From: Saxidomus purpurata
Lineage: Eukaryota > Mollusca > Bivalvia > Venerida > Veneridae
Length of the DNA stretch: 64,000 nt
Assembly: GCA_022818135.1 (NCBI GenBank)
Contig: JAFMSR010000017.1
Coordinates: 9,783,144 to 9,847,143, forward strand
Direction of reading: 5' to 3'
A model generated the notes under the pieces. The model saw nothing but the letters and a program-made list of their open reading frames with translations, ran no database searches and had not been told where the DNA came from. The position numbers were made by a program, and so were the translations under genes. This document shows, piece by piece, positions 906-61,671 of the stretch. Each line of letters starts with the position of its first letter. Position 1 is the first letter of the stretch.

Positions 906-907
906 TA

Positions 908-37067: not shown

Positions 37068-37390
37068 TCAGTATGAGGCCAGGGAAAAAATAATTCTGAA
37101 TCCTTGTGCTTCGTCCCTGTCATCACTGACGAACTGAATTTTTGCTGACTTTGTAATGATTTGATTTGTGGGTTTGTTGTTGGCATCGATTCGCAGATAT
37201 GTTCCTTCACTGAGAATGTCCACATAATCACCGCTTTTAAGATCAGCGCGTTCGAAAACAAGAACCAGTCTGTAACCGGATGTTGGAGAGACGTTCCATT
37301 CACATATGGTACCTGGCTCATATTTGTTTGGATAATGAGGGCTGTTAAGATGTGCTCCTGTGCCGGTAACCGTTATGTTCCTTGAACATT
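37068..37390 (-). CDS. astacin gene terminal exon: second CUB domain
   Basis: Acceptor attttattctag, phase 1, 106 residues to TGA. A complete CUB domain in one exon: start 'ECSRNITVTGTG', 'LNSPHYPNKYEPGTICEWNV', and end 'GFRIIFSLASY'. It keeps the first cysteine pair but lacks the second (where CUB1 has C..C, here 'SGDYVDILSEGTYLRI'). It is the protein's C-terminus, with no membrane segment or GPI signal. Confidence 0.9.
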
Positions 37391-40300
37391 CTAGAATAAA
37401 ATTTAAAAACTTATCAAATCTCAACAGTAGAAGCAAATGTGACACAGAATAAAGCTAAGTTGATAACCTAGATTACATTTCTATTTGGTGATACATTTTT
37501 AGCTCGACTTTTCTATGAAAAGGGGGTTTTCCCCCCCCCCCCCCTCTGGCGATCAACCTTGCTTAAGTTTCTGTACCACCCACTTTATTTCATAAGTATT
37601 AGAGGTATGGCTTTGAAACTTACCATATTTGTTTACCATCATAACCTCCATTTACAGACAAGAGTACATAACTCATGTCAAGGTTTTTGACAGAATAATG
37701 GCCCTTTTTTACTTAGAAAGTGTATTGACTTGGTTAAGTTTTTGTACCACCTCACTTTATTTCAAAACCATTGGAGGTATTGCTTTGAAACTAATCATAC
37801 TTGTTTACCACACGACCTTATCAACGACAGAGGACATCTGTCAAGGTTTTTGACGAATTATGCCCTTTTGACTTAGAAATACATTGAATATGGGTAAAAT
37901 CCACTTATCGCTAGCCCTCCCCCCCTTTGAGATATTGCTTTGAAACTTTTAATGCTATTTGACATCATTACCCCCATCTGTACACAGAGAAGGTAATCTG
38001 TCAGGGATTTGTTTTAAAAATTAAGCCTTGTATCGATTAGAATCTTGATTAAGTTTTTCGTACTAAGTCCACTTTTTGACTGAACTGTTTGAGATATTAA
38101 TTTGAAAGTTGGAATACTTGTTTACCATCATGATTCCCAAACATGGGCAGGAGAAGGTAATTCTGTCAAGGATTTTATTTGAATTATGGCCCTTTTTGAC
38201 TCAGAAACTCAGTTAAAATTTTCATTCTTGTCCTCTTATTAACTTAACCATTTGAGATATTACTTTGAAAGTTGGGAGTACTTATGTACCATCATAAGAC
38301 CTATCTGTAAGCAAAAGAAGATAACTCTGTGAAAATGTTTCTTGATTTGTACTTAGAAATTCCTAGTTAAGTCTTGTGTGCTCTTAACTGTCAAAGTTTT
38401 GTTTTTTTGGCAAGCCTAAAAGGCCGCACGCTGTCCTACTGACAGCTCTTGTTTGTATTCATATTCTGCCAGGATTTCGAAATAAACTCACCAGACCTAA
38501 ATACATCTATCTATCTACATTAAATGTATTTCAAAAAAAATTATTCGAGGTGTTGGATATGTCAATGTCGGTTGATTTAGATCGATTAAACAAACCAAAA
38601 GGAAAAAAAGTCATCATATAAAGCTCACTTGATCTCGTCAGCATTGGTCCTGCTGGTTGACTATTTTGCTGGTGGCCTGTTGCCTGTTGGATATTTGGCG
38701 TACACTTCAACGCTGTACTCTCTACCAAAGTGTGGGTATGTTGACAGCAGAAAATATCTTGTTGCTGGTGCCATTATAACCTCTTTGGCCCCCTTTGCTC
38801 TGTACCGCCTCTGCCGACAGCTTGTAACTGATGACGTATGCGGACACAATGGATGGCGTCTGTAAGGGCGGCTCCCATGATATATTTAGCCCTGTCACCA
38901 GCTGATCGATGTTAAGGTTTATCGGACTATAGCCTAAAATAAATAATGTAAAGTGAAAGTATGAGTAGTAATTATCATCCTTTTAAAGGCGCGTATAGAT
39001 CTATAACCCCGCTACAGACGACAGTGCCTGATTGATCATAAACCACTCCACGTTGATATGGAGATCCAATGTTTGTTATAATCACAAGCTGTCATTATCA
39101 TTCCACGAACACATGAGTATATTTACAGTATGGATTAACAAATGTTATAAAAAGACACTTATCAGTAATTTGGAGGTTAATTTCAGAAGTTCTCTTTCTT
39201 TAATGGCTACTATTCAAAACTGGACATAATTGTAAAATATTTGTCAGGTTTTCAAAGCTACTCAGTCCACCTGGTACTTCCTGGTAGTTGGTGATGAAAA
39301 GGTGCAAACACTAACACCTTAAAATCTCTGCAAAACGTGTATCTGTTGTGACAAAAGGAGGATATTAGTATTTGGATCACAAGGAAAGTAGGTGAACAAC
39401 TTGGAAGCAGTGATCACAAGAAAAGTAGGTGAATAACTAGGAAGCTATGACCACAAGGGTAGTACGTGAACAATTTGTTTCGAATCGACGAGCAGGCAGA
39501 TTGGAACCAACTTTGAAGCGATGATCACAAGGGAAGAAGTAGAACAACTTTGAAGCGATGATCACAAGGGAGGAAGTAGAAAAACTTGGAAGCCATGATC
39601 ACAAGGGAAGAAGTAAACAACTTGGAAGCGATGATCACAAGGGAGAGTGAACAACTTGGAAGCGATTATCACAAGGGAGAGTAAACAACTTTGAAGCGAT
39701 GATCACAGGGGAAGGTAGAACAACTTTGAAGCGATGATCACAAAGGAAAGTAGAACAACTTGGAAGCGATGATCACAAGGGAAGAAGTACAACAACTTGG
39801 AAGCGATGATCACAAGGGAAGAAGTAGAACAACTTTGAAGCAATGATCACAAGGGAGGTAGAACAACTTGGAAGCGATGATTACAAGGGAAGTGATGGTC
39901 AAAAACAAGGGAAACAACTTGGATGCCAGCTCCAAAGGGCGGTGTGAACAACTTGGAAGCGATGTCACAGGTATACCAGCAATGGCCACAGAAGGAGTTC
40001 TTGTAGGGTATTGATAATCTTTACAGAAATAAACGAAGAGATGGTAGAGACAACAAACAAGCCATCAAAAACCTCAATGAACCCATTCTGAAACCTCTAT
40101 ACAAGTGTACTCCTTGACTACGGCAATACTGGAATAATGAGAAAAAAGAGAAAGTCGAGAAACTGAAACACCTCTTTTTCAAAGAAAAAGAGCATTAAGT
40201 CTATAAAAGCATCTTCCAAGATGAAACATTTGAAGCAGAAATCTGCATCTCTCTACTTAGGACGTAACAAAGTTTTGGAAGCTCACCAAACAGCTGAATC

Positions 40301-43300
40301 AGAAAGGAAGAAACAACAGAGGCGGAACAATACTAATAGAGACTTACATTCTGCTGTCTCCATATGTCGTTCAACCAATTCCGTGATGACGGCTTACTTG
40401 TGAAGTTACTATATAATGGGATCTGGCTGGACCAAGTCCAGTGTTGATTGGAACTAAAGTTTCAAGTTCTGTCATCCACATGATGTCCCTTTAGGCGGAA
40501 TATTTTCACCAGCTTTATTTCTCAATTCCATAAGTAACGTAGAGCCCGACCTGAGTAAAGGTATCTAGACTGTGATGACATTGTGCTTTTGTTTATAGCA
40601 AAGTATGCGTAAATAAGCAGTTGCAGAATGAAACAAGCTTGAGGCATGCTTGGAACATAGGTAGAACATTGATACATACAGGCTTATATAGCATTTACAT
40701 GTACCGTGCAAATTAGCGGTATTTCAGTGTCTGGAAAGGTGTTACCTTCTTTGGGGTACATACGTGGAATTCAACCATGCCAAAGCTGAAACTAACGCAT
40801 GCAAACAATTTGCTTCGCTGTGGAAGCTAACTGACATGAACTGGGGAGCAAATGATAGATAAGATACTGAAAACTTTATACAAGTACATATAATTGGGAA
40901 CACTCAGCATCCACATCGAATACGGCTCCACAGTTTGGATGACCACTACAAATACAGCAAGCGCTAGGCAAGGTTCTTGAGCAAGGTTCAAGAAGCTATT
41001 ACAACCATTGTACTGGTGAAATGCGTGTAATTCCTATTAAAGAAATGGAGAAAGTCACTGTCATGAATCAGGGATGCAAAGACACTCGAACAAGTCAGCA
41101 AGGACCAGTTCTTGCCAAACAGCTCCTCTTGATTAGTCGTAACTACCAAAACCATTGAGATACGACCAACCAAACAGCACCGCTCTATTGATCCTGGACT
41201 CGAAACAGATGTATAAGATAAAAGGATTTCGAAAGGATATCCGAGGCACGGACCCATGTGTACATATACAGCCGCTATACTAGATGACGGTAGTTTTTAC
41301 CATACACAAAAGTTGCAGGATCGAGACAGACGTTCGACATCTGAGCTTAAACTGTGTTATAACATTTTGAAAACATATTTACATGACTTTCCGAAGTCAA
41401 CAAGTTTTCTGATTTTACCTTGTGCAGAAGCTATCATTGAAAAGCCACCCTGTTTTGTCTCTATGGGACCTGGTTTGGATACAAACGTCACTGCCACGTC
41501 GTTAACTGCCATGATAACATTGCCGCTTGTGGGTTGTTTATTGCAGTATAACCTTGTTTCACCAATACGGACATAGTCGCCATTACAACTATCGTCTCCC
41601 GGGATATCTAAGGACGTAAATGTTAAATTGATGTGCTGAAATGTAAGAATCTTTGGTTAGCGTGTATGAATCGTGTGTATAAGCCCAAGACGTGTGTGGT
41701 CATCTGGGTGTTAAGACTACTCACCTAGTTAGTAGTTAGAGGATATCTTTACTATTGTTGTACGCATAAACATACTTATGTGCGGACTGTAAAGGTATGA
41801 AAGCTCCGTATAGGGATTGCCATTTTCACTTAGATCTTGATCTAAACTTTTATCCCCTCATACCGGCAGCGGTTACTTCCCTTTACAATGTACGGAGCTG
41901 ATCCTTGCAAATTGCTGTGTAAACTTGGTTTCTATTTAGAGTTGCCGATTCGTTTCAACCAAATTGAATGTTCTTAATGCCAAATACATGTATGACGGCA
42001 AAGCTTGACTAGCACTAATGAAATTGCATATAGTTTAATTACAAAAACCATTCATTCATCTATTGTTTTGTATGAAAAATAACCTGTATACTGTAAACTT
42101 TAAATTGTTGTTATAAAAGCGATAATTTTAGAGAGTAACGTTAGTTTTCTTACTAAAACACCGGATTACATTTCAGACGTTGACAGATGTATTTGTGTAA
42201 GTTTTGGGTGAATGACAACTATTGCTATTGATTGGTCTTAATCGTATCGTATATTAGGGTTTTATCGTTGGTACTGGTGACCAATATGACCAACGCCCCC
42301 AGAAGAGTTTAGTTATTTTAGGTTTTCGGAGGATAGTGTAAGATACAGAAAGCGTCCCAATTCCAGAGACACCCCTGGTTCTTTAACGTCCTCGGTTTAA
42401 GTCTCATCTGAAAGACTGTTAGTAATTTTAGTTGGTTAGTCCGGGGAATCGAACCGGCTACCTCGAGATTACGTCTTGATTATAGTTTTTACTGTTTTGT
42501 AGCACTTTTCGTTTATATTTTACCTGTCTAGGTGGCGTTCTGATAATCCATTGACAAACCACATCCTGCTCGTAATACCCGTGCTTGAAGAAGGGAGAAT
42601 GAATCTTGTCAAAAGTGTCGTTATCGAGGTAAACAGTCTGGGAACAGGCTACAAATATACATGTATATACATATATGGTTCATAATATCTCTATACTGTG
42701 CTTAATTGATAGAACTGTCAAGAAGATGACATCATCAAGTAAAAATATAATCCGATCTTCACCATACTAGAAAATGATACAGAACTCGAAAGAAAAACCG
42801 TACGTGGAACCAATTTATGAAGATGCTTGATTAGAAATCCATACCTGATCTTGTGGTCACAGGATCGGAACTTGGTCCAACGCCTTTGTCAGTGATAGTG
42901 GCTATAGCAATTGTGTACCTCCGACCCGGATGGCTTGTGTAAGTGGAAAGATAGTATGCTAACTTGTTTGCAGCCAACCTAACCTGTTGCCGACGCCCAT
43001 TTGGTTCCAACTTGTATGTAAGCAAGTAGCCCTACGAGTAAAATGTCCATGTGAATGTTTCAACTTTCTAATACAAGTTACACTTAGGATAAGATCATTT
43101 GTTGTCTTATTTGTTTGCTTATGCTTTGCTAATGTAACTGGAACATCGTATACTCTGCACATGGCTGGTCGAACTTAAATCTGCAGTTACCTCCCCTTAC
43201 AGTACCTAAAGCTAAGCAATGGAGGTTTGCTGACATATCAAATCAGTTTCTATGTAGAGTTGTTCCGTTTTAGTCAGTTGTTTTCTCGGGAGGGGCACGC

Positions 43301-46300
43301 CGGCGCATGCCTGGAAGTCAAATAATTGACTATGGCGAAACGGCGAATGCCGCATGTACGCCGCATTTTAACATAACTGTAAACGTTGCGTTAAACCGTG
43401 TACATAAGGCTGCACATAAGTATATGAATGAAAAATATGAAGAAATGTGCAGACAGTAAAACGTTAAGAGCTTAGAATACCTTAATTTGATCCGTCGAAG
43501 GAGGCTGGTTCCAGTTTATTCTTAAGGCGTTTGGAAAAACTGTAACCAGAACCTTTGGTTTTCCTGGTGTGCCGGGAACCACTGAAATATACTCGATATA
43601 TTACTTAAGAGGGAAAATATGATACACCTCTAATAACATATGATAAATAAAGGATTTGTTTAATCATATTCAGTATAATGAATTTTTTATGGCCCAAAAC
43701 AGTCCTTATAAAACCAAATTTATTGATACGTAAAAACAAGAAGTGGGGACAAATGATTCGTCTTTGCAACCAGTGCAAACTGTGGTCAGCATCCGCATCC
43801 ACATCCGTTTGATAATGAACTCTTAACAGGAACACATTTGAATAACTAATAGTACCGTCCAAACTGGTAACATGGACACGTTCATTTAAGAAATTTTCTA
43901 CGCGAACGTCTGACCACACAATCAGTTTGACGTCATAATTGTCCGTGTTAAATCAATGTTAAGTGTTCAGATGCGTGATAACCATGAATAAAAAAACTAT
44001 TACCTGATTTACACGTCTAATGTTAAGTCTAAAAGAGCTGATTTAAAGCACAAGTTCAACTGTATTTCATTATAAATTATAGTGTGTTGACTTTCCGAAA
44101 GCGCTTTTAAACATACAACCTGTGTAAATATACTCACAAGGGGAAGATGGGGATGTAGATGTTGGTGTGGTTTGGGTCGTAGGTTGTGTCGTCGGTCCCC
44201 AAGTGCTAGATAAATACGACATCCACTCAGGTATCGGAGCTGGCCCTGTAAATAAGATTGTGCGACTACACAATAAAGGCAAGGAATGTACGAATGAACT
44301 CGTACTTGTACAAGATACTGTGTTTTGTTGAGTATGTTATATAAAAGTATTACTTGTCTGGAAACTGATTAGTCCAATTGTAACTGTTTAAATTTTCTCA
44401 CTATATGCAAACTTGAAATAGTTGACGTTTTAGACTGTACTTGTATACGTCCAATCATACCGTTTTAGAAAAAAGATCTCGGGTTAGAACACAGAAACCT
44501 ACCAGCAAAATACCAGTCTCTCGTGTACAAAACATCGTCTTACGAGTGTTGTCTGACAGTAAAGAAAGATGCCGATATCAAAATACACAATATTTTCTAC
44601 ATGGGATGTAAACAGTCAATTACACGTAGCTAACACATAAATGTAATCAGGTTCAACTTATTTCTATGTTCAGTTTTAAAAGATTTCGTTTAAGTGTCAA
44701 CATGTGTTTGTAAACTTTCAATATTGTATCTTGGTCGTATGAGTGGTTAACAACAAAACATCAGAAAGACAATATGTTTTTTATTAGACGATAGACAGTG
44801 CTTAAAAGGACATTATTTCAATTCTAACACGACATAATATCACGAAAAGAGAACGAATCGCACTGAGTTATCTTCTACGCGAACGTCAGACGACGCAATC
44901 AGTTTGACGTCATAATTGTCCGTGTTAAATCAATGTTAAGTGTTCAGATGCGTAATAACCATGAATAAAACACTATTACCTGATTTACAACCGTACAAAG
45001 TATTTATCTTCCAAATATCAAGTTTGCTGAATCCATTTCTTTGTCCCATTTCCACATGAGGATCATACTTGGGTGTCATGGTTGGCTGGTTTTGGTTTTT
45101 ACTGAATATATACGGTCCATAATGCATTATGCTACCGTAGTCATACGGTGCTCCGAGCGTATCTAAGTACCTCTGGCTTTGAATATTGAAGTCATGTTCC
45201 TTTCCTGTCAAATAAACAAAAGCAGTTTGACGTTAGCAAAGTGTGTACGACTGACGCAATTTATATATATATCTGAGATATGCTTTAGAGCGAAATTGGA
45301 TCTTTTTTAAATAAAAGGTACGGAGAAGCGGCTATTTGTAACTACATGTATTATCCTGTTAGCAGCAATGGATTCTGCATTTGTACCCAGTGCAGAATGA
45401 CGGCTGAATTTTGTATGCAAAAAATACACGTTTATCTCCCCTGATAAATGATGAAAATATCTTGACATGAAAGTGTAAACAAAAGAATGTATCATAAGTC
45501 CGACTTAGCTAATTTTTCGTATTCAGTAATAACCGTTTGAACAAATTGTATGGCTTGTAATTAGGGTCAAAAGTAAAATTAAATCGAGTAAACATATTTC
45601 ACGATTTCAACTATGAATTTAGTCACAGTTGTAATCAGACACTGTTACAGATGTACATTCAGGACATTATGCGCTTTTTTCAGATGTAAAAATCCTAAAA
45701 TGGGTGTGTAAAGCTGGAATAGCTTTAACCCAAAAGATGCGCATAATGTCACTTTGAAAGAACTATTTATATATTTTGTTCTTTTGACACCATTGGTACA
45801 CCATTACTTGCCTGCTTGAATATTATTACGCCATTAACTTGCCTGCATGAATATCATTACTCCATTAATTTGCCTGCTTGAATATAATAACACCATAAAC
45901 TTGCTTGCTTGAATATTATTACGCCATTAACTTTCCTGCTTGAATATTACTAAGTTACACCATTAACTTGCCTGCTTGAATAATATTACATAATTAACTT
46001 GCCTGCTTAAATATCATTACGTCATTATGTTGTCTGCTTGAATATCATTACGCCATTAACTTGCCTGCTTGAAATAATTACAAAATTAACGTGCCTGCTT
46101 GAATAATATTACACCATTAACTTGCCTGCTTGAATATTATTACACCATGAACTTGCCTGCTTGAATATCATTACGCCATTTACTTGTCTGCTTGAATATT
46201 ATTACGCCATTAACTTCCCTGCTTGAATATTATTACGTCATTAACTCGCCTGCTTGAAAATGATTACACAATTAACGTGCCTGCTTGAATATTATTACAC

Positions 46301-47028
46301 CATTAACTTGCCTGCTTGAATATTTTCCCAGAGAACCGTTACATAATCGTCCCTGTCCCATCGGTTTTGTTCGTGAAAGAAGCCTACTGCATGTGTCATC
46401 TCGTGTAATACCACACCGAGATAATAACAGTCGGGACCTATCGTCAATGTCTGTTCCCCGCCATCTCTGCCGATTGATGAATGACATCTAAAATACATTG
46501 TTATTAAAATGCATTGAAATACCGTAATCTCGAACTCTGTTTAATCGAATTCCTGTTTAGCTGAAGTCAGTTGTTGGTCCTGTCGGCGTATTTTAAATAC
46601 ATTTGGTTTGTTTAAGTCGAATTCCTTTAAAAGTGATTGCTTTCAACTGGATTCGCAAAGTTCGATTTAACCAGAGTCAAAGGACAATTTTGATATATTT
46701 TCTTACCTATAGTAGGCAGTATAAGTGCAGTGTCAATTTTTACTTTGGGCAAGTTGTAGTGAATAGCCGCTTGGAGGATTTCGGGCGACTAGCATTACTC
46801 TATTATTCCGAAAACGCCGAAACATTACGAAAGTTTATTTTATGTTTTTAAGTGGTTTTAAGCGGACTTCTTCAATCATACTAAGGACAATTTGTCTCTC
46901 TTTATTTTGTCCTTACAACCCATTTACACCCCCCGCCGCAATGTCCCCGAAGTGTTTCAGCAATCCGTTGCACGCATCATAAAAGTGGGGACAGGGTTTT
47001 TGTCCTCTCTTTCAAATACTGTCTCTCT

Positions 47029-47059: not shown

Positions 47060-50000
47060 CCCCCCTCCTCTATCTCTCTCGGGCGATTATTCTGAGTGGT
47101 AAGAGCTTGTTTCGCAATCGAGAATAAATAAAGTGGAACTATCATACATTCATTAACTAGCATGTTTTAAAATGACTTACCCTTGTCCGCTTTTAAAACG
47201 AACGTAATCAAATTCGTTTACTCGGGGTGTGAACTGGATACAGGAAATATCTTCGTTGAACTGTTTTATTGCTTTAATTATCATAAGTACACCATCTGTG
47301 CCTGTAAATAACATTAGAATTCATTTTATCATTTTGATAATTAACATCCATTTCTTATGAAAACATACGGATACACTTGTAATCACAAGTATTTATACAT
47401 TTATATTGTTTGCACCGACTTATTGACGCCCTTTCAATCGGGTTTTATCAAGGGAGATTGTAGCTCGACAATTAATCAATTGATATATCTCTACAATGAT
47501 ATACATCGTAGTTAAGGCACTTAACGAAGGCACAGTTTTGCGACATCACAAACGCTTTCGACAGGGTGTGACACCGAGGTCTGCTTTCTTAACTTGAATC
47601 AAAAGGTGCACTGGGACCTCTACTTTCAAGGTTTCATTATTATCTTAAAGACAGATACAGAGAGTAGTTCTTGCCAACACATCTTCAGCTTGGTGAACTA
47701 ATAAACGCAGGCGTCACACAAAGTTCAATTTTAGGTCCTCTTCTCTTCTGCATCTATATAAATGACACTGTGTCAGAAATGCAAGCAAACTATTCGTCAT
47801 TTTGCTGATTACACAAGCTTCTATATAATAGTTGATGATCCTATATAGGCCTCTGTTGTAGCGAACAATGACCTATCCCGGATCACTTCTTGGTCCAAAA
47901 ACTTACTTGTCTCATTCAATCCTTCAAAAACCGAAAATATCATTTTTCGTGTAATCGCAACAAGCCCGTACATCAAAATATATGTATGGGTCAAGCCACG
48001 ATAAACCAGGTTGTAGATAACAATCATCTTGGTCTATCTTAAAAAGCTAAATGGACTTCTTACCCCTCGTCTGCACTTGATAAGGCATGGTAACGCATTG
48101 GTATACTTCGATCGCTTAAGTTTATTCTAGCAAGTTCTTATTTAGAGAAAATGTACATCACATTTGTCAGACCACTCTTAGGCAGTGCAGATTGAGGTAG
48201 CGAAGATCGTCTCAGGTTCAATGAAGCTATGCAACACAGGTCGACTTCTGAATGATCTCAATGGGAAAACTTGTCTGAGCGGAGAAGAAAGTATCGTCTC
48301 ACTATATTTTACTAAAGGAAAAATCAATTTGTGTCCCATCTTATCTTTCAAACCTTATTCCCGAACAAAATAAACAAGTTCCTTTTTAGATACTCCTATG
48401 ATTCACACGCGTACTTAACTGTATGCCTCATCCTCCCTTCCACTTTTTCTATCCGAGACTGGAACGCACTTTCAAACGAAGTACGCAATGCATCTTAATT
48501 ATCAGACTTTAAAGGCAAATTCCGCCGTAGGCCAAATAAATCACCAGCTTTATTTAATGTTAGGACCATGCGGACAAACTCCAAATCTATCATACACTTT
48601 TGAGATCAGGATGTCCAGTTTTCTAAACTTTGACTAACATCGTCGAAATCTAGCCGAGTCCCTTTTATGTACCGACAACATCTCACTATCTATAACAATG
48701 TCCGATATTTCAGAATGCGCGCAACACATACCATTCCAAACGTCCATGTCCTCCTACAATGGATAATCTTCTCCTTGGCAATGAACACCTAACCTTTGAA
48801 GTCTATATTATATTGCAGCAGCAAAGAGATTCCTCAATTGAGTTCGGCGCTTCTGTCGGGGATTGTGTGTGTGTCATGACGACATCGATTCCTGCATTAA
48901 GAAATCAGTTCATTGTGTTCCAAACATTTATATTCTGCAAGCAGAGCCTATGGCATGGTGTGTATACTATAGTATATATTGTATAGTATTCAGGGAATAC
49001 CGCTTCCTTCACCGGGTCAAGACTGTCACTAAAAATCAGCCAGTTTGTTGACGAAACGATTCTGTCTTTTTATTGATAAATCGAAAGGGAAAAAACTATG
49101 AGGAAATCAAATGATGAAACGTTAGGAATAAACCACGGTTAAACTATAGACAAAGATGCATGATTGCGTGTATATAAAATCAATAAAATAAAAAAAGTTT
49201 TACATGTTTAGAAAGGCAGGCATCTCACACTACAAGCCTGGGTAAATCTCTAATAGTCAAAACTTACGTCTTTTCCGCACTTAGTTTTGAAATCGAAACT
49301 AGAGGGATTCCACATAGATTTACTACAGAACTTTAGCAAATTGTATCAGATTTTTATGGCATGATAAAACACTCGTAGCGAGGTCAACTCTTACAAGGAC
49401 TATATATATCTTTTAAAAAAGATGGTTGGCGCAATTTTGAGTATAAGAAAGCGATTGGTAACTAGATTTTATAGTAAAAACTTTAATGAAGTCAGAAGGC
49501 GCCAAATATCACAGGGTGAGAAAACGTGAACGCGAACCAATGGTCCTTCACATTCAGGGTTGTAAGAGCGAACGCTATCCCGGCTGAGCTAACCGCCCGC
49601 GACATCTGCGTCAGGAAAACAAATTTAAGCCTTGTTTTTCTTATCGAATGTGTTACTCGAAATATTGACCGTTATTCACCGGCCGAGAAAGTTTAATTAC
49701 TCTACATTTAAAACTATTTGCGTACTCAAATTATCATGAAGACCATTCAAGAAAGACTGAAAACGCAGTCCGAGTATTTCATTAAAATAATAGTAAAAAT
49801 AAATCATAATAAATAATTGACCCTTTTCGTTCGAAATTATCCAATTAAAAGGTGCCTTACAGAGTAAAATTCCCAATAAAAAAGTTATACGTTCTACATG
49901 TCGTTTCAATGGCGGTTGAAAACTTCCGATCAAAAGCGGACTTAATACGGATGATAGTGATGGAGGTTTTTTCGGCACAGCTGTATTAGTTGAGAAATTT

Positions 50001-53000: not shown

Positions 53001-56000
53001 TCGATGTGCGAGGACTTTTAATGCATGGAACAGACGTCTTTAAAGAATTGTCAATTATAAAAAAGCACTCGTTTCTTAGAGTCTACGCTAACATTTAGTG
53101 AGCCTTTACGTCAGTTACATTCCATCTACAACCAGACTCTCTCTGGGATAATATGTACACCACATTGTTCGACATTCTACAGGTATAAAACATTATCATA
53201 CATCACTGCTTTGAAATGTGTAATGTTTTGTAACACAATTATTAATTAAAAACGGGCAGGAATAGCGTCCCGAATCTTTAAAGTGACATTATGCTTTTCA
53301 AGTAAAAATCCAGCTGAAAATGGTGTGTGTACAAAAGCATAGAGGAAATAATAGCTTTTAACCCAATACACCGAACTCTTCCCGCTACCAGTATGAAAAA
53401 ATAACTTTCCAAATATTGATTTTCTTATTTGACTGGGAGAGTCAATTTAAGAAAAGAACAACTGCATGCAGGAGTTGCTTCCCTTCCACTGCCGAAATCT
53501 CTACCAACATCAACAACGACACAATCAACTATCATTTTATCAGTCCGATTTTTTTATATCTAAAGCACCAACTTCAAATACTAATGCGGCATACTCATTA
53601 ATTTAACACATTTAAATGCACAGCAACCAAAAACTGTCACCAAAAATACACTATGTGCAGTAAGATGCGCATAATGTCACTTTAATGTTAGTAATTAGGT
53701 ATTTAACAAGCCCTGGAGTCGGACACTGCCCGCCTCGAGAGCAAATTGTTGTCCGGTTCGAGGGCGAACTGCATGACAGCTGAATAATTGATAGTAAACA
53801 ATAGGTAGGCTACACAAATGGATTTTAAAATAGTCTTAAAAAAGGAAGGAAATGCGTGTTTTGATCGGAAAATTATGATATAGTATGTACATGTGTATGT
53901 ATTTCAGGCTATACTCACGTTCTTTGGTATTTTCAAGACGTGTAAGGTTTAAATTTTTTCATTTTCCCGCTCTGAAAACATCAAAACAAGAGGAAGTGCG
54001 GGATAAAGAGGACCAATCACGTCATCGGAGCCGGAACCGTTAAAACCGGTACGAATACTTAAAATTATCGTTTTCGTCGCAACTACAATCAGATCGGCGG
54101 TTATAATTAACGTTAAGGGGTTCGAAAATGCCCGATTTCAGGGTATAATCCGACTACAGGTCGAATAACCCTAGGTGAGATCTTCAAAATCACAAACAAT
54201 TGGAAAATAAGGTAGTTTTTCATATAGATATGAAATGTTTTTGACACAACAAACGCAATTGAGTAAATCAGACCGATCAGTTAACGAAGGGTGATCATTC
54301 CATTACAGATCATTGATTTAACAATGGCAAACATGTATGGTAAAAGTGATTTAGATCAAGAATGAGTCATCGAGTGTTTGTTTTTCATATTAATACTGTT
54401 TATTTTAAGATTTAACTTTGCCCATCACAGGGAGGCACAAATAAATTAGTAACTGGGTATCGTAGGTTGACAACAAACGCAATTTGAACTAAGTTTGGAA
54501 TTCGTTTTAAAGGCCGAGCCATATTACATTGTAAATAGGCTTTGTAATAAAAAGAAAGATGTGATGGAAGAAGCCATGTCTACCATTGACGAATAATGTT
54601 TTCACAAACTAGATCTATATTCTGTGAAACTAAATCAGCTTTATTATCGTCTTTTATCTCACAATTTTGCGTTATGAGTCAGTAACCTGTTCGAAAAACT
54701 TTTAAAAAATCCTTCAGAAGGAGTGTAGTATCCGCAGCCATATTGGATTATTTCATTGCTAAGTAGGATATAGGTCTCGTGCATACCACCTGTTATTACA
54801 CCCTTAAGACTGCGTCACGTTTAAGGCAAACATTGGAAGCAGTCCAGTATACGATTTTGGTACACCACGTGGGTATATTGGCTCATTGACTAGGCTGAAG
54901 GGATATTTTTTTCTCTATTTATTTTATTACTATATACAGTATGGTATGCAATACTCATATATAAAAGGCTAATCATGTGGAAAATTTCGGAGATAGTCGA
55001 AGTAGCACTATTGCTTACTGAATTCACTTTTATCTATTACGTAAGGAATTTTGTTATCTTTCCACAGCCAGTCTTTCACAGCCACGGCATTGCGTCTCTG
55101 AAAGAAAGAAAAAAACGTTTCATTATGTAATCAAGATCCTGGATCGTAGAAACATTTTTCTTATTTTTTTATCATTTGGAACGTTTTTCGGTACTTTTCG
55201 TAGAAAATACGAGTATACTACGGAAAAGACCGTCTGATTCCGATTTCGGCGTAAACTTTTGATTATACGTAAAGATGCTAAAATCAACAAGTAGTTCTGC
55301 TTTACGGATGGGTATATCATTGGCAAGTTTAAGCGAAAAACCCTAAGGGTAAGAACACACCCTATAATTATGCGGATAATAGAAAAACTATCTCTTTAAC
55401 AGATCTGGAAGCTGTAGCTGAAAAAAATACATGTACAAGGCATATTGCTTGTTAGAGACTATCTACTGAATATTCGAATAGGATTCTAATTCGAATACAT
55501 CAAAACAAATATTCGAATAGCATTTCTAGTATTGGTTTTTGTAAAATTACTCAAAATGTGTGACATTGACATGGGAGACAGCAATCTATTGCGCATGAGA
55601 CATACCTGTGTTGTAGTCAACAGCTATGTGAATTTACTGAAAAAATGGGTCGTACATGTAGACGTTCTAGAGATGGCACGACGTTGCAAACGGACTGACG
55701 TACCTTGACGGACGGAGCCACGTGAACCTATAATCCGACAAATCAACGAATAATAAAACTAAATTTCATGAACACGTTTGAAGATAATTCAAGAAAGATT
55801 AATAAAAAAAGAGTTCACCTTTCTGCTTCCGTAAGATCTAATTCCATCAGATTGCGCATGCGCACTGGATCCTGTAACGGGTTGCGCATTAGTAGCGGCT
55901 CCTGTAACACAGTGATTGAAGTCTAGTTGAGGATATAGTCTCTTTGTGATAGAAGTTCCGAGTTGAGACGTGAGTGCGGAAAATATTTGGGACGTGGAGC

Positions 56001-59000
56001 AGCTTATATCAAGGCTTTTCATAAGAACATTTGCATATGATATAACTAAGCTGAAATGATAAAAAAGAACGAAGAGTCTGATGTTATATGTAAAATATGC
56101 TGTAAATCATGATAAACAGATCCATCCCGATTTAGGTAACATTTACCCAGTTACAGGCAATATATACTGAAGCGAAAAAGAAACGCAGGGTAACAAAATA
56201 TGTAATAATATCAAAACGGCTATGTGTAGAAGTAGTGATATCATGCACTTACTATTTAAACTGCTTTTGAGTGATTTCAGATCGATGAGCACAGTGACCG
56301 AGATAATTATCTGACCGATTTTCATACTTCTACACATAGCCGTTTTGATATTATTACATATTTTGTTACCCTGCGTTTCTTTTTCGCTTCAGTATATCTA
56401 CATGATACTATATTCGATCATTCTTACACAAGTGAAGTGTATAGATCTAGAGATAAGTTGCATACATTGTTCCACATTTAATTACAAACTGACACAATTA
56501 CTAGTAAACATATATGAACAAAAGAGTACATGTACTGTTAATACACAAACAAATATTAAATTTACACTAACAAAAGTAAACTTTTGCTATGTTAAACACT
56601 CGATGTTCAGCGTGTCAATATAAAACGCGACAATAACATGATTGTCGTGAGAAGGAGGGCGTGTATTTTGCACGTGCGTAGTGGACGCAATTTACCTGAG
56701 ACCTGGCTCAGAATGTACTTTTCGGCACACTACTTTGGTCAATAATGCACTAGAAAGCAAATGCAATATCTTCATACAGAATCTCCTAAAACACGTGCAG
56801 AGCACAATCTCAAATTTAAGTACACTTTACTGTTTGTTCCTATTTGCTGTAAATAGACAAAAACATATTTACTTATGCGTTTGACTTACGTGCATACAAG
56901 ATCCTTGTTGTTGTACCCTTCTAGAGATCGCATCGCTGTGCTTGTATACAAGAACGACACCAGTCGAAAGTTGTCTTTACACATGGATGTTGAAACATAA
57001 TTGGCATTCTCTACAACCAGTAAATAAATGATATTGTTTATTTGCTGTCCCAAAGTATAGCATACTGTACTTTCAATTAAAAAAATGTTTGGATTTTCTC
57101 TGTACAAACAACGACAAATTTCGTCGGTATTCGCATAAAATCTTTTTTTGCATATAACTGTGAGCATGGTTCGTTTACCATGTACCGTAAGTCATAGTTA
57201 TTTATACCATATACATAGGCAAAAAGACAAGCATTATAGTTTAACATACTGAGCAACGAAGCAAACGTCTCTGGTTTATAATGCCTTTCGGTTTCCACAT
57301 GTCATTGTTGCACAATACTCAGATAACCACTATAGGCAAATAGAGCTTGCCATGTCAAAAGGGATGTACTTTCAATGTAATGAATTTTGTTTTACCTGGA
57401 CATTGTGTTAGAAGACCCAGATTACTAGCCATTCCTGCAGATAGATGTATGTACGTGTTTAATGCCGACTTCATTTGTGCCATTGTGCAATGAGAGCCAG
57501 TCCCTTGTAACTGTTTAATCATACACGCCTCCACCTCCTGGACATAGCTGTAACATTTTGTCACATTGAAAGTATTAGATTTTGTGCTGGTGATCTACAT
57601 ATAAACGGTTCAGTTTTAAATCAACTGCGGTTAATGAAAGGTCATTCATCCCTAAGTGTGAGCCACAGTTAAACAGTTTTTCCAAGTGACAAATATTACA
57701 CTTTTATGCATACAGAGAACATGGAGTTGTCTAAATAACAGATTTGTTGGAGATGAGCGGTTTTGCTCGGAGTTCAGCGGTTTTGCTAGGAGTTAAGCGG
57801 TTTTGTTAAGAGTTTAGCGGTTTTTGCTCGGAGTTTTTTGCGGTTTTGCTGGGATTTTGGCGGTTTTGCTAGGAATTGCTGGAGTTTAGCGGTTTTTTGG
57901 CTCAAGGAGTTTTAATTTGCGTTTTTTGTTTCCCCTTTTTTTTTTAGCGGTTTTGCTGGGAGTTTGGCGGTTTTGCTAGGAATTTAGCGGTTTTGCTCGG
58001 AGTTCAGCGGTTTTGTTATGAGTTCAGCGGTTTTGTTTGGAGTTTAGCGGTTTTGCTTTAGGAGTTTAGCGGTTTTGCTGGGAGTTAAGCGGTTTCGCTA
58101 GGAGTTTAGAGGTTTTGTTGGGAGTCTGATGATTTTTCTGCTTGAAGGTTTTACTCCTGCACGCACAGTGAATGGGGCGTGTTACACACAGAGGACCAAT
58201 TCTCAACCCATCATATTTGTTCTATAAATAAAATACACGATATGCCATCACCTGATAAACATAAATTTACCTAGTATGTGAGACTTACCTACATTGCATG
58301 TTTCTGTCTTGGGAATCCATATTGTCTGTGAGGTTAATATTTGAGAGCCCCGTCATACAAGTTGTGATATTTCCGTATGAGAATATAGTCACATAATTAA
58401 CACAATTCTTGTCTTCATTTACACTTACTGTCTGAAATGCAAATTGTATAAAAAAAGTGTCTAGATAATATCATCAATACCTCCCGAGTCATTGGTCTCT
58501 TGTTTTATATCACGTGACAGAAAAGTTCAGTCAAATATTGCCATTAAAGAGCTGACTATACATTTGTGTTTCCTTTAAAGTTTCCATAGAACTTCTAAAT
58601 TATTTTAAACCTGTATACAGCTATAATCTTAGTGTGTCATGGGAAATTGCCTTGAAATCTACGAATTCATTTTAACTTTTTAAGTAAAATTACTGCCGCA
58701 GTTGTGTAAATTTCAACTACTTGTACTGTATTTGTTTCATGTTTTTCTATCGCAACGTTAAAGTACTGTTTGCGAGAACAAAATTAATTGATTTCCAGGA
58801 GGCGTCATTCAAGTCAACAATAGATCTACACATGTACTCTTAGACTATCTACTTTGAGTATTACATGTATGGCACATTTGCTCTGCTGCGCTATTGTAAT
58901 TGTTCTCTATTGTAGATAGATCACAGTTTTAAGCTCCGCCCCCATACGCAGTGCAAATTCCCAGAAATACAGTACATTGTTTTCTCATAAACATATAAAC

Positions 59001-61671
59001 ATATACAGTGGCCAAAATGTAAGATATTTATTGTAAACCCAATAGGAGTAAAATCTGATGAAAACTAATCATTTGTGGTGTGGTGTTCCATAATAGCAGT
59101 ATTTTTCATACTAAATGAATCATTTTTACCTTGAAACACGTTTTAAGGTCCAGTCCCTGGACGTGTCTGGCAAGATAGCTCGTCGCTGATTGGCTCTTAA
59201 ACGCGTTCTCAATGTCTACCTTACTACACGTGACCCCTAGAAAACCCATACTTTTGTCTGCACATTCAACTAAAGAGGCGCTGTACCTTTGAACAATAAG
59301 GAGATTTCCTAATTAGAATACATGTCAAAGGTAAATGGATATGGATGTCTGTCTATAATAAAACAAGATGGCTGCTTCAAAAAGCATCCAATGGGTTATA
59401 CAAACTATTTTCTATTTGATCAGTGTTGATGAGAATGGATCCCGTGAGGAAAGTTGATGCTGATAAAATAGTTCATTCTTACATGAAATGAAGATTAAAG
59501 CTGAACATACTGTGACAGGACTATAAACTTTCAGCCAAACGCACAGACTGACGGACGAACAGACGGATAGGAGTTGGTCACAACACACGGGTGTTACATC
59601 TGGTGGTTCGGACTCTTGGCTGAGGTCATTCAGCAAAAAGGCAAAGTTTCCTTTCTAGCACGTAAATTTATTTCAAAAAAGGAAAAGTCCAGTATTCCCA
59701 CGTTGACACTATCACAGCATCATGCATGGGAAATAATACCTATCCTCTGTATGGATAGGGTTTGTTCTCACAGTGCTTAAAAGCAGTAAATGTAGGTAAA
59801 TAATATATGACAAAGTACTTGAACAGCAAATTCGGTACAGTAAGGTATGCAGTCACTCTGTTAGAATTGTATCTTTATCCAGGTGCATTTAGATTAGAAA
59901 ATGTTCCCACAAGTAAATTGTTTTATATTACACATATTTAATTTACGTACAAATAAGAGCTGTCAATGCTCCCAAAGAGGTGTCCAACAGTCTGTGATCT
60001 TACAACATCAACAACAATTCTTTATTACACCCAGGTATACAAGTATACAACATGGGGATACAACCAGTTACTTATACTGAACAAATGAAAGGGTTCCGGC
60101 TTATGATGGTTTTGTTGGGAGAAAGCTTACATCTATTAAAAAGCTTTCCTATATATTGACTTTTAAAGTATTGTTAATTTTGCACATCGGCAAAGAATTC
60201 GGAGAAGACGGAGAAGTTATATATATATATATTTTTTTTTTTACGCTTTAAGCTAACATTAGCATTTTTCACATAGGCGGTAGACTTGTTAGTAAATTTA
60301 TACTAGTATCATATGTCGTTTTCGTTTTTAAAAATAACAAAAACAAACGCGTGCTACTTGCACGAGCTTCTCACATGCCTTATCGAAGTGGGGGCGTGAA
60401 CGGACTACTTTCGGGTGATTCTGTCCATTCACGAAATTTAGTCACGTGCTTACAACTACATTGTCGTAGTAACGCACTATGCGCTTACACTGATGTCGTA
60501 AATTTCTATTCCTTTGCAAATTACTACGAATAAAAAGAGACAGTGCTAGGAAATAAAAACGAAAAAATCTCGAAAAATTTATGAAATCATTAGGAAGAAA
60601 TACATAAAATTTTGATATTATTCTTCTCCTACACCTACTACTATCTTTGCCATGAGTACTTCACTGGTTCAAATAGCAAAAAGAGCATTGTTACCGTATA
60701 ACGACTAACACATGACTTAACATTCAAGGTGTGGACCCGGTACTTGCGAACGACACTTTATCACCAAGTGCTGACTAATTGTTCCAATCATTTTTAAAAC
60801 CCTTCTCTGCATAACGGTTTGCACATGTACATTACATACATGAGAGGTCTAAGTGTGACCTTGACCTTCAAGGTAAGGATGCGGGACTTGCGCGTAATGT
60901 GTCATCGCTGTGTGCTCAACAATTGTGCCAGGTAATATTAAAATCCTTCCATGCATGACAGAGTTACCATGTATACAGGATTACATGACCTTTAAACTCT
61001 GAGTGTGACCTTCACCTTTGAGATGGGGTCGTGGGTCTTGCACGCGACACATTGTCCTGATTTGCTGAAAATTTGAAAATCAAGTTGAGAGAAATCTTTG
61101 TCAAGTTGTTGAATGACATTTGGGATGTCAGAATTCGAATATCATTTTAAATTAATGAACGACAGTGTTTTCATTGCAATACGGGAAATTTCAATATCAG
61201 AGGTTTGCATGAAAAATTCGATTTAAATCCAGAATTTGCCAGCTAATTCGGGACATAGCAAGTCGGGATTTATTATATTTAGACTTTACAGGGAAATATA
61301 CAATGTAGTATGTATCATTGCCTTCGCATGTAATTTCCGGCTAAAACATTGCCAGAGGTTTAACGGTTATTTAAGATATATGATTGCTTATCCTCTTCAC
61401 AGCGGATAATCCACATATACACAAGTATTCCGAGAACCTAGGTTCACATGTGAGAAAGAAAACCTAGGATCCCAGTGGTCCTACAGGTTGATGTGTCAGG
61501 ATTTAATCAAAACGTATTGATACATAAAGATGGTACAAGTTGTAACTTACACACAGGCACCGTACGAGTCTCCAATAAACTGCATTTGATCCAGGTAGGG
61601 GCCACACGCTATGAGTGTATACTGACTCAGCCGCTCTTCGCTTGAACAAATACTAGTTACTTCCGGTTCAA
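37068..61671 (-). CDS. modular secreted astacin: (6-Cys)x2-astacin-FN3-CUB-CUB
   Basis: Fifteen exons, all phase-compatible: 61551-61671, 59130-59286, 58289-58431, 57396-57547, 55819-55901, 55019-55097, 47181-47301, 46312-46487, 44980-45204, 44138-44245, 43481-43581, 42845-43031, 42524-42648, 41419-41635, 37068-37390. About 772 residues are visible. The 5' end (signal peptide) is not found. The order is two six-cysteine domains, a Ser/Gly/Ala linker, RKRR, astacin catalytic domain, Thr/Pro/Ser linker, FN3, CUB, CUB. Zinc site HEMTHAVGFFHEQNRWDRD and Met-turn SIMHYG are intact, so an active extracellular metalloprotease is expected, released from its N-terminal region by a proprotein convertase. 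Substrates are unknown. An FN3 exon at 38629-38933 is frameshifted and can be skipped in frame. Confidence 0.88.
37501..38451 (+). mobile_element. Helitron/pearl-like element, second copy
   Basis: Starts AGCTCGACTTTTCTATGAAA, has a poly-C run (about 37530-37543), about five diverged units of roughly 170 bp ('gaggtattgctttgaaact'), and ends in hairpin GCTGTC-CTACT-GACAGC then TCTTG (38430-38451). Head and tail match 27843-29519. It sits in the last intron of the astacin gene. Confidence 0.65.
38629..38933 (-). pseudogene. decayed FN3 exon of the astacin gene
   Basis: Acceptor atttattttag|GCTATAG (phase 1) and donor ATCAA|GTGAGC are both present. Frame 1 reads a good FN3 start ('GLNISWEPP', 'AYVISYKLSAEAVQSKG'). 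After a GGGGG run near 38790 the continuation is in the next frame ('VIMAPATRYFLL', 'YPHFGREYSVEVYA'). After about 38700 the FN3 end 'QPAGPMLTRS' is in the third frame. The exon is 305 nt; removing two bases restores phase 1-1. Unshifted translation reaches TAG. Skipping it joins exon 41419 to 37390 in frame. Either a relic exon or assembly errors. Confidence 0.75.
39395..39970. repeat. minisatellite, 30-37 bp units
   Basis: About 16 variable-length units of 'aacaacttggaagcgatgat' + 'cacaagggaagaagtag', with tttgaag/ttggaag variants. It lies immediately upstream of the LINE relic and in the long intron of the astacin gene. Confidence 0.92.
40030..41250 (+). pseudogene. LINE reverse-transcriptase relic, family L
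   Basis: Plus-strand frames give 'VPLGGIFSPALFLNSISNVE' near 40484 and 'CDDIVLLF' near 40571 (the catalytic YADD-type box), then 'HIEYGSTVWMTTTN' near 40912. The same family as 62360-63945: both contain 'ggggagcaaatga/ggggagcgaaatga' and 'atactgaaaac'. Many stops and frameshifts. It ends just before the CUB exon at 41419. Confidence 0.75.
41419..41635 (-). CDS. astacin gene: CUB1, second half
   Basis: Acceptor tcttacatttcag|CACATC, phase 0, and donor GCACAAG|GTAAAA, phase 1. Encodes 'HINLTFTSLDIPGDDSCNGD', 'YVRIGETRLYC', and 'VAVTFVSKPG', with the third and fourth CUB cysteines and the calcium-site-like acidic residues. A nearer AG (cgtccttag) would remove conserved residues, so I use the upstream one. 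Confidence 0.88.
42320..42480 (-). mobile_element. tRNA-derived SINE fragment
   Basis: Reverse complement: B-box 'ccggttcgattcccc', then 'cagatgagacttaaaccgag' and 'gttaaagaaccaggggtgtc', matching the body of the SINE at 7900. The A-box end is diverged. Located in the intron between FN3 and CUB1. Confidence 0.65.
42524..42648 (-). CDS. astacin gene: CUB1, first half
   Basis: Acceptor tatatttgtag (phase 1), donor AGACAG|GTAAAA (phase 0). Encodes 'ACSQTVYLDNDTFDKIHSPF' and 'YEQDVVCQWIIRTPPRQ', with the first two CUB cysteines and the 'SP.F..GYY' start. Joins 41635 to complete a 114-residue CUB. Confidence 0.88.
42845..43031 (-). CDS. astacin gene: FN3, second half
   Basis: Acceptor ttactcgtag (phase 0), donor AGATCAG|GTATGG (phase 1). 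Encodes 'GYLLTYKLEPNGRRQQV', 'YYLSTYTSHPGRRYTIAIAT' and 'GVGPSSDPVTTRS', the C-to-G strands of a fibronectin type III domain. Confidence 0.88.
43481..43581 (-). CDS. astacin gene: FN3, first half
   Basis: Acceptor gatatatttcag-type (phase 1), donor ATTAAG|GTATTC (phase 0). Encodes 'VPGTPGKPKVLVTVFPNALR' + 'INWNQPPSTDQIK', the A-B strands with the conserved Trp of FN3. Together with 42845-43031 the domain is about 96 residues. Confidence 0.85.
43891..44012 (-). repeat. duplicated exon end, copy of 44870-44989
   Basis: About 120 bp from 'ttctacgcgaacgtc' to 'tattacctgatttaca' is present twice at high identity. The right-hand copy includes the last ten bases of the astacin exon ending at 44980 and its GT donor. 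The left-hand copy places a second TGTAAATCAG|GTAATAG in the next-but-one intron, without the rest of the exon. Confidence 0.85.
44138..44245 (-). CDS. astacin gene: Thr/Pro/Ser linker exon
   Basis: Acceptor cttatttacag and donor CCCCTT|GTGAGT, both phase 1. Encodes 36 residues: 'PAPIPEWMSYLSSTWGPTTQ' then Thr/Pro/Ser-rich to 'SPSSP'. A mucin-like, probably O-glycosylated spacer between the catalytic domain and FN3 (inference). Confidence 0.82.
44980..45204 (-). CDS. astacin gene: catalytic domain with Met-turn
   Basis: Acceptor gtttatttgacag|GAAAGG, donor TCAG|GTAATAG, phase 1. Encodes 'GKEHDFNIQSQRYLDTLGAP', 'YDYGSIMHYGPYIFS' (Met-turn with the zinc-site Tyr), 'TMTPKYDPHVEMGQR' and the closing 'INTLYGC'. 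These are all the expected C-lobe features of astacin. Confidence 0.95.
45662..45753 (-). mobile_element. 92-bp internal-deletion derivative of MITE A
   Basis: Keeps both family A ends ('ggacattatgcgc' left and 'gatgcgcataatgtcact' right) and fragments of the 3' interior ('gtaaaaatcc', 'tgggtgtgta', 'agctttaaccca'), but lacks about 310 bp. TTAA flanks have decayed. Confidence 0.65.
45795..46320 (-). repeat. 31-bp minisatellite derived from an exon end and its GC donor
   Basis: Sixteen intronic units of 'gccattaacttgcctgcttg' + 'aatattattac' (about 31 bp), continuous with the end of the astacin exon at 46312. In gene sense each unit reads ..AATATTCAAGCAG|GCAAGTTAATGG, the exact last 13 exon bases plus the GC donor. 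About half keep AG|GCAAGT intact. The array starts inside the exon and extends downstream. Confidence 0.93.
46312..46487 (-). CDS. astacin gene: zinc-binding exon, GC donor
   Basis: Acceptor aatgtattttag|ATGTC, phase 2. Encodes 'CHSSIGRDGGEQTLTIGPDC', 'YYLGVV' and 'HEMTHAVGFFHEQNRWDRD' (three zinc His, catalytic Glu and the RWDRD continuation), then 'DYVTVLWENIQAG'. To rejoin GKEHDF at 45204 it must end at GCAG|GCAAGT, a GC donor. Continuing past it gives 'KLMV' and a stop. Confidence 0.95.
47024..47062. repeat. (CT)n microsatellite
   Basis: About 18 CT repeats followed by a C-rich run, in the intron between the two astacin exons. Confidence 0.95.
47181..47301 (-). CDS. astacin gene: N-lobe exon
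   Basis: Acceptor tgttatttacag|GCACAG (phase 1) and donor GACAAGG|GTAAGTC (phase 2). Encodes 'TDGVLMIIKAIKQFNEDISC' + 'IQFTPRVNEFDYVRFKSGQG'. The 'C.QF.PR....DYV.F' pattern is standard for astacins before the zinc helix. Confidence 0.93.
47420..48560 (+). pseudogene. LINE reverse-transcriptase relic (Jockey/CR1-like)
   Basis: Plus-strand frames read 'LTPFQSGFIKGDCSSTINQL' near 47430, 'INAGVTQSSILGPLLFCIYI' + 'ND' near 47706, and 'FADYTSFY' near 47803 (the FADD box with Asp to Tyr). Later text near 48440 resembles the RT thumb. Many stops. It sits in the 7.7-kb astacin intron in the antisense orientation. Confidence 0.7.
49499..49612 (-). mobile_element. possible tRNA-like SINE fragment
   Basis: Reverse complement has 'gcgggcggttagctcagc' + 'cgggatagcgttcgctctta' (a D-arm and A-box-like segment) and a weak B-box 'tggttcgcgttc' about 50 nt on. 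Too diverged for a tRNA gene. Confidence 0.4.
49735..50092. mobile_element. imperfect inverted-repeat element
   Basis: 'ccattcaagaaagactgaaa' + 'acgca' on the left returns inverted as 'tgcgttttcagtctttcatg' + 'aatgg' on the right. Inner pair 'ggtgccttacagagtaaa' / 'tttactctgtaaggcatc'. The middle is AT-rich. The 105-residue minus ORF is not supported. Confidence 0.55.
50200..50880 (-). pseudogene. pogo/Tigger-type transposase relic
   Basis: Minus-strand frames give 'GGKPLLSRNQERELFQELGI' (the HTH/CENPB-type region), then 'WNMDETGLFLSHK' near 50360 (the N-x-DET catalytic signature of DDE_1 transposases) and 'TVIACGNVNGSVILP' near 50310. Stops and frameshifts make it non-functional. The second and third catalytic acids were not found. 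Confidence 0.75.
51183..51530. repeat. 40-bp minisatellite, about 8 copies
   Basis: Unit 'aaaccggtcagttatccgaa' + 'gtattggcaactagtggttt' (40 bp), with two longer units carrying an extra 'tttgtaggtcttggaacggt'. High identity, so recently expanded. Confidence 0.95.
51591..51873 (+). repeat. 300-bp dispersed repeat, second copy
   Basis: Matches 9541-9842 in the same orientation. Follows directly after the 40-bp minisatellite with about 60 bp between. Confidence 0.8.
52217..52655. mobile_element. 439-bp TIR transposon, 6-bp target duplication
   Basis: Starts TGTTGAACCGTATATGTCCC and ends with its complement GGGACATATACGGTTCAACA. The arms extend about 40 bp before diverging. Flanked by GTGCTC at 52211-52216 and 52656-52661. 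Internal arms also hold 'atatcacacgtgtgtgatat'. No transposase. TGT..ACA ends with a 4-6-bp duplication would fit Ginger elements (tentative). Confidence 0.8.
52662..53281. other. no gene seen
   Basis: Intron sequence of the astacin gene with a poly-T run near 52811. No ORF, repeat or RNA feature is recognised. Confidence 0.5.
53282..53681 (-). mobile_element. MITE family A, inverted copy
   Basis: A 400-bp reverse-oriented copy flanked by TTAA on both sides (53278-53281 and 53682-53685). It lacks a short GCGCA in the left end ('attatgcttttcaag'). Confidence 0.85.
53690..55018. other. intron, no gene seen
   Basis: No credible ORF. Low-complexity AT-rich stretches. A weak B-box-like word 'ccggttcgaggg' lies near 53753. 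Confidence 0.45.
55019..55097 (-). CDS. astacin gene: start of mature protease
   Basis: Acceptor tttctttcag|AGACGC (phase 0), donor GAATTCA|GTAAGC (phase 1). Encodes 'RRNAVAVKDWLWKDNKIPYV' + 'IDKSEF'. 'LW..N.IPY' is the standard opening of astacin domains. With the preceding exon end (SRK) it forms RKRR just before NAV. Confidence 0.93.
55819..55901 (-). CDS. astacin gene: linker exon with tandem acceptor
   Basis: Acceptor cactgtgttacag (phase 1), donor AGAAAG|GTGAAC (phase 0). Encodes 'GAATNAQPVTGSSAHAQSDG' + 'IRSYGSRK'. The exon contains a 30-bp direct duplication that includes a second acceptor, cccgttacag|GATCC, 30 nt inside. Using it would drop ten residues in frame. Confidence 0.75.
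56162..56397. mobile_element. perfect 73-bp inverted repeat
   Basis: Arms 56162-56234 and 56325-56397 are fully complementary as read, with a 90-bp loop. No obvious target duplication. Located in the intron between the second six-Cys domain and the linker exon. Confidence 0.9.
57396..57547 (-). CDS. astacin gene: six-Cys domain 2, second half
   Basis: Acceptor aaaatgttacag|CTATG (phase 2), donor TCCAG|GTAAAAC (phase 1). Encodes 'SYVQEVEACMIKQLQGTGSH', 'CTMAQMKSALNTYIHLSAGM' and 'LLTQC'. Cysteines 4-6 of the domain have spacing C-x11-C-x28-C. Confidence 0.83.
57745..58140. repeat. 20-bp minisatellite, about 20 copies
   Basis: Unit 'agcggttttgctaggagttt' with G/T and length variants, interrupted near 57900 by a T-rich run. 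Lies in the intron between the two halves of the second six-Cys domain. Confidence 0.95.
58289..58431 (-). CDS. astacin gene: six-Cys domain 2, first half
   Basis: Acceptor gcatttcag|ACAGTAAG (phase 0), donor CAATGTAG|GTAAGTC (phase 2). Encodes 'TVSVNEDKNCVNYVTIFSYG' + 'NITTCMTGLSNINLTDNMDS' + 'QDRNMQC', carrying cysteines 1-3 and two N-glycosylation sequons (NIT, NLT). Confidence 0.83.
59130..59286 (-). CDS. astacin gene: six-Cys domain 1, second half
   Basis: Acceptor tattgttcaaag|GTACAG (phase 2), donor TTCAAG|GTAAAA (phase 0). Encodes 'YSASLVECADKSMGFLGVTC' + 'SKVDIENAFKSQSATSYLAR' + 'HVQGLDLKTCFK'. Spacing C-x11-C-x29-C matches the second domain. Confidence 0.82.
59300..61545. other. 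intron of the astacin gene
   Basis: No exon found. Copies of the nuclear-receptor-half-site repeat lie at 60840-60920 ('tgtgaccttgaccttcaagg') and 60980-61075. AT microsatellite-like stretch near 60220. ORFs here are unsupported. Confidence 0.5.
61551..61671 (-). CDS. astacin gene: first visible exon, six-Cys domain 1
   Basis: Acceptor attttccag|TTGAAC (phase 1), donor TGTGT|GTAAGTTAC (phase 2). Encodes 'EPEVTSICSSEERLSQYTLI' + 'ACGPYLDQMQFIGDSYGACV', with cysteines 1-3 (C-x13-C-x16-C). FIGD matches the FxGD 'aspartate switch' tetrapeptide of astacin propeptides, but it sits far upstream of the usual place, so this may be chance. Starts in phase 1, so at least one upstream exon is missing. 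Confidence 0.8.

Follow-up and report, generated by a model that had tools for sequence, protein, structure and literature searches.

Analysis of a stretch of 64,000 nucleotides from Saxidomus purpurata (the whole stretch is called the window here) revealed an astacin metalloprotease gene whose N-terminal half differs from a normal astacin prosegment, as supported by domain searches and by comparison with related sequences. In the reading we favour, with a probability of roughly 0.6, the astacin prosegment was replaced in a heteroconch lineage by a disulfide-rich helical prodomain (one copy in the relative P0002, three in the window gene), which would be cut off by a furin-like protease and until then keep the zymogen latent. 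It is the type of prodomain that is new, whereas the protease family is known.

The predicted gene runs on the minus strand from position 61671 to 37068, and its 16 exons encode 861 residues in one open frame up to a TGA ending at 37068 (Table 1). All exon junctions (15/15) are phase-compatible, and the introns are GT-AG in 14 of 15 cases and GC-AG in one, 3' of E9. The first-pass annotation had already given these coordinates and a joining of exons without phase conflict, but had counted 15 exons instead of 16. E2 has an alternative in-frame acceptor 6 bases downstream; we used the acceptor that gives a spacing of x8 in unit 1, matching unit 2, while the alternative gives x6. Since E1 is entered in phase 1, the model lacks at least one upstream exon, which presumably encodes the signal peptide. 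Between 61.7 kb and a point 40 kb past the window end, scanning yielded only unconvincing first-exon candidates, and none was adopted: 61985-61802 has the right end phase but a long and odd leader, and 63405-63339 as well as three candidates further off likewise end in phase 1. On the same flank, contig C17 shows a minus-strand open frame of 867 codons 11.7-14.3 kb past the window end and, at about 20.2-20.5 kb past it, a minus-strand frame that appears C-type lectin-like by eye.

Table 1. Exons of the window gene and the broken second FN3 exon, in order of transcription (window positions).
Feature	Positions	Strand	Content	Remark
E1	61551..61671	-	unit 1, first half (C1-C3)	phase 1 to phase 2 right after C3
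E2	59130..59286	-	unit 1, second half (C4-C6)	
E3	58289..58431	-	unit 2, first half (C1-C3)	
E4	57396..57547	-	unit 2, second half (C4-C6)	
E5	56890..57010	-	unit 3, first half (C1, C3; Ala at C2)	matches start of Mercenaria P0001
E6	55819..56050	-	unit 3, second half (C5, C6; no C4), linker, first part of furin-type site	
E7	55019..55097	-	RR-NAV of cleavage site, start of astacin domain	phase-0 border; P0001 and P0002 match
E8	47181..47301	-	astacin domain	
E9	46312..46487	-	astacin domain with HEMTHAVGFFHE	GC donor CAG-GCAAGT (cut after CAG)
E10	44980..45204	-	astacin domain with SIMHY Met-turn motif	
E11	44138..44245	-	Pro/Thr-rich linker	
E12	43481..43581	-	FN3-1, first half	
E13	42845..43031	-	FN3-1, second half	
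E14	42524..42648	-	CUB-1, first half	
E15	41419..41635	-	CUB-1, second half	
Broken second FN3 exon	38630..38934	-	three pieces in three frames	outside the model; tblastn of Mercenaria FN3-2
Last exon	37068..37390	-	CUB-2 and stop codon	

Pfam recognised an astacin domain (E 5.2e-62; 209.3 bits versus a cut-off of 22.5, profile positions 2-189 of 189), two CUB stretches (1.7e-23) and one fn3 stretch (8e-07) in the gene product. Both catalytic motifs are intact, namely the zinc motif HEMTHAVGFFHE and the SIMHY Met-turn; PMC9848320 defines astacins by HEXXHXXGXXHE and SIMHY, and the window enzyme shares both with crayfish astacin, Limulus astacin and meprin beta. The gene is well formed and encodes an astacin (M12A) metalloprotease, which is probably secreted. 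It differs from the BMP1/tolloid proteases, whose catalytic domain is followed, according to PMC9848320, by five CUB and two EGF-like domains, in having two CUB stretches, one fn3 and no EGF domain by Pfam.

The N-terminal half consists of three cysteine-rich units (E1+E2, E3+E4 and E5+E6), and in every one of them a phase-2 intron immediately follows the cysteine at position C3. Two tandem domains had been described at first; their cysteine gaps (13,16,8,11,29 in unit 1 and 14,21,8,11,28 in unit 2) and intron position were as claimed, but a third unit, which shares the intron and has gaps of 28,17,29, had been missed. Unit 3 retains four cysteines, as C2 is an alanine and C4 is absent, and both are likewise missing in the Mercenaria and P0002 units. 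The two positions are either both filled or both empty, which hints at a disulfide between C2 and C4. The spacing between C6 of one unit and C1 of the next is 11 residues both times. Two of the internal introns contain repeats: an imperfect 20-bp tandem array of about 19 copies in unit 2 (57756-58125) and, seen by eye, a near-perfect inverted repeat in unit 3 (E5 to E6, about 56396-56165).

In order to assess the relationship of the units, local-alignment scores were compared with those of 1000 free shuffles; holding the cysteines in place gave the same picture. Sequence homology is clear for units 1 and 3 (z 5.8, 0/1000 shuffles as good), and unit 1 also resembles the P0002 unit (z 6.6) and the Mercenaria unit (z 5.7). 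Unit 3 is even closer to these two (z 23 and z 36, respectively). When the window units are compared with one another, the pair formed by units 1 and 2, originally taken as the related one, shows the least sequence similarity (z 1.5, 89/1000 shuffles as good), and unit 2 also scores near shuffles against unit 3 (z 1.9), P0002 (z 2.9) and Mercenaria (z 0.4). Unit 2 is therefore assigned mainly by its cysteine spacing and intron, which make it a probable homolog of units 1 and 3. The intron conserved inside the units is consistent with duplication at exon level, as proposed before, but there are three units instead of a pair, and by the phases at the unit borders (1>0, 0>1, 1>0, taken from the exon phases) no unit on its own forms a symmetric exon module.

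Searches of family libraries gave no name to the unit. The first 310 residues alone, like each single unit, remained below every Pfam cut-off, and for the N-terminal half NCBIfam returned only matches at E 0.066-0.12, which we took as chance. This agrees with the earlier view that the half is not a normal astacin propeptide, and the absence of a named family held up at the level of these cut-offs, apart from one faint contact: unit 2 touched part of the profile of DUF1397 (PF07165; the "27 kDa hemolymph protein" family) at E 0.016, with 15 bits versus a cut-off of 25.7. The other four of the five unit sequences had no match to it, and the match of unit 2 is weak enough for chance. Sequence searches of the PDB found no match for the 310-residue half, and the best hit of the unit profile was a ribosomal protein at E 0.048. 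A protein search with the N-terminal half found nothing among 988 candidates, a weak negative, as P0001, which has unit 3, was also missed; a search with the unit profile returned P0064 as sole match among 1064 candidates with lengths limited to near 189 aa. Of the papers listed by literature searches, none mentions this domain in its title or abstract opening.

Across the 1.13-Gb genome, the 310-residue half found no second copy of the units: the seven matches among nine scored candidates were its own six exons and one at chance level (contig C15, E 2.8, three stops). Around another astacin, on contig C7, no unit match was found in the surrounding 40 kb. A dispersed repeat of about 400 bases occurs in at least four places in the window (907-1327, 6133-6543, 28622-29049 and 53278-53686), which share 81-87% identity with a site on contig C7.

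AlphaFold2 predicted six helices for the P0002 unit (six rows; pTM 0.68, mean pLDDT 75.7). Fold searches with this model returned nothing from the PDB or a viral library at E<=0.001, and the structural matches were weak, which is no proof of a new fold. Judging from the model, the unit is a small disulfide-rich helical domain matching no family in the libraries searched.

Searching with the protease half yielded 63 proteins from 7992 scored candidates, of which the best 13 (P0001-P0013) all have astacin, fn3 and CUB domains and include ten named bivalves and C. gigas. Furin cuts at basic RX(K/R)R sites, and in the window gene the unit region ends at the astacin border with such a site, RKRR-NAV (cut after RKRR), where a furin-like enzyme would be expected to cleave. 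Mercenaria P0001 and P0002 resemble the window gene in having a unit before an RX(K/R)R site, followed by the same protease. The P0001 record starts at a Met inside unit 3, which is also present in E5 of the window, and runs into RKKR-NAV (cut after RKKR). P0002 comes from a contig of 2459 bases with a frame of 776 aa and is thus probably a transcript; it has a leader that is hydrophobic by eye, one four-cysteine unit and RSKR-NAV (cut after RSKR), and differs from the window gene in its single unit. These fusions support the assignment of unit 3 to the protease gene. Adjoining the protease and common to the window gene, Mercenaria and P0002, unit 3 is by sequence the conserved one; the Mercenaria record covers unit 3 onward, and no ortholog of units 1 and 2 is among the relatives. 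P0064, from a contig almost equal in length to that of P0003, corresponds to the second half of the same unit; its match to P0002 breaks off immediately before the residue that follows C3 and again immediately before KRNA, which is consistent with two intron positions of the window gene.

The pteriomorph orthologs (Pecten P0007, Ylistrum P0008, Mytilus P0009 and P0010, Pinctada P0011, Saccostrea P0012 and C. gigas P0013) differ from the window gene in having a short prosegment with EGDI or GGDV (7/7) and no unit; the records of P0009 and P0012 begin with the Met of this leader, and P0012 lacks the activation site. The N-terminus of Dreissena P0004 comprises a hydrophobic start and a short leader, with neither unit nor GD. 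The N-termini of P0003, P0005 and P0006 (P0003 and two unionids) were unusable and have no say on unit or GD. In a midpoint-rooted tree, the window gene groups with Mercenaria (83/79, not starred) and both with Dreissena (100/99); Mercenaria and Dreissena are both members of Heteroconchia. Because of this placement, Dreissena has either lost the unit or its gene model is wrong. Together with P0002/P0003 and the unionids, these sequences form one half of the tree (100/100), within which the order is not fixed, and the EGDI/GGDV sequences form the other (100/100).

The domain order astacin-FN3-CUB-CUB, as first proposed, is what Pfam finds on the model, but the relatives read astacin-FN3-CUB-FN3-CUB, with P0013 ending after the first CUB, and a broken FN3-2 exon lies between the CUB domains of the window gene. 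The architecture recurs in other bivalves as far as the fusion of unit 3 to the protease in Mercenaria is concerned, but with the second FN3 in the relatives. Mercenaria FN3-2 matches the window by tblastn at 38934-38794, 38786-38667 and 38665-38630, each in another frame. The broken exon keeps plausible splice sites, and its counterpart is intact in Mercenaria and P0002. An inter-CUB FN3 was aligned in 11 of 13 relatives (P0001-P0005 and P0007-P0012; P0006 ends inside it and P0013 before it), and Pfam found two fn3 stretches in all four relatives scanned (P0001, P0002, P0004, P0007). Since the flanking introns are both phase 1, omission of the exon keeps the frame, and two separate frame shifts favour decay over an assembly error; from its sequence, the exon looks decayed and skippable. 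Elsewhere in the protease half, a minisatellite of about 17 copies of 31 bp (45797-46324) has as its first copy the end of exon 9 with the GC donor, which suggests amplification of the splice donor itself. A stretch that runs from the last bases of exon 10 through the donor into roughly 100 intron bases (about 44987-44873) is, by eye, repeated in the E11-E12 intron (about 44012-43897).

According to PMC9848320 and PMC9629494, the prosegments of animal astacins share FXGDI, whose Asp blocks the zinc; in the zymogens of crayfish astacin, Limulus astacin and meprin beta, the propeptide is largely unstructured and lies across the cleft with the FXGD Asp bound to zinc, and a bacterial zymogen uses a Cys as zinc blocker. 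Upon activation, the freed N-terminus is bound to a family-specific Glu. The pteriomorph EGDI/GGDV resembles this motif, with I, L or Y replacing F. Compared with the FXGD astacins, the prosegment of the window gene and P0002 consists of helical units with six or four cysteines, an FN3/CUB tail follows, and the P0002 prodomain has no GD.

We propose that, in a heteroconch lineage, an all-helical disulfide domain took the place of the short prosegment, single in P0002 and tripled in the window gene. The folded prodomain would most likely cover the active-site cleft and so keep the zymogen latent. A furin-like protease would then cut RKRR-NAV, release the units and free an N-terminal Asn (Asn-Ala-Val); Limulus astacin and meprin beta have a mature N-terminal Asn according to PMC9629494, and by analogy the same is expected here. 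The FN3 and CUB domains may aim the mature enzyme at extracellular targets. The model of full-length P0002 (pTM 0.40) is too weak to reveal contacts, and its prodomain-protease geometry is unusable.

Rather unlikely, in our estimate, is that the units form a targeting or protein-binding module, the protease needing no inhibition by a prosegment or being kept inactive by its uncut N-terminus alone. Dreissena, which lacks both unit and GD motif, would fit this, as would the variable unit number (one in P0002, three in the window) and the propeptides of the four known zymogens, described in PMC9629494 as mostly extended and not as folded domains. Yet the unit occupies the place of the pteriomorph prosegment and ends at the activation site, which an intron adjoins in the window and, judged by the loss of homology, in P0064.

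It is improbable that E1-E4 with units 1 and 2 belong to another gene upstream or are a relic no longer in use, the working gene being leader, unit 3 and protease as in P0002. The single unit of P0002, the shared Met at which P0001 starts, the weak sequence relationship of unit 2 and the unconvincing candidates upstream of 61.7 kb all point that way, but the junctions from E1 to E7 are all open and phase-compatible, and the 11-residue spacing recurs at both unit borders.

That a longer leader hides the ordinary mechanism, with the FIGD of unit 1 or another acidic residue (e.g. the L-D before C6, kept in four of five aligned units) binding zinc, is very improbable: FIGD fits FXGD and PMC9848320 records prosegments of 34 to 486 residues, but the P0002 prodomain lacks GD, the other four aligned units contain no FIGD, and FXGD arises in 480 of 20000 shuffles. 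The FIGD, 277 residues before the prodomain end, may act as a switch, be a remnant of one or have arisen by chance.

Replacement of the prosegment by a folded prodomain thus remains our preferred reading. A bolder version, which we put forward tentatively and consider doubtful, is that an animal astacin lineage has abandoned the aspartate switch and relies for latency on a disulfide-helical prodomain that is folded, multiplied in tandem and founds a new family; if true, this would be a third type of astacin latency beside the aspartate and cysteine switches. A natural lineage with a folded domain in the place of FXGD would show how a protease may swap its safety catch while staying under control; the case also points to a small domain outside the searched family models, with a before and an after within bivalves.
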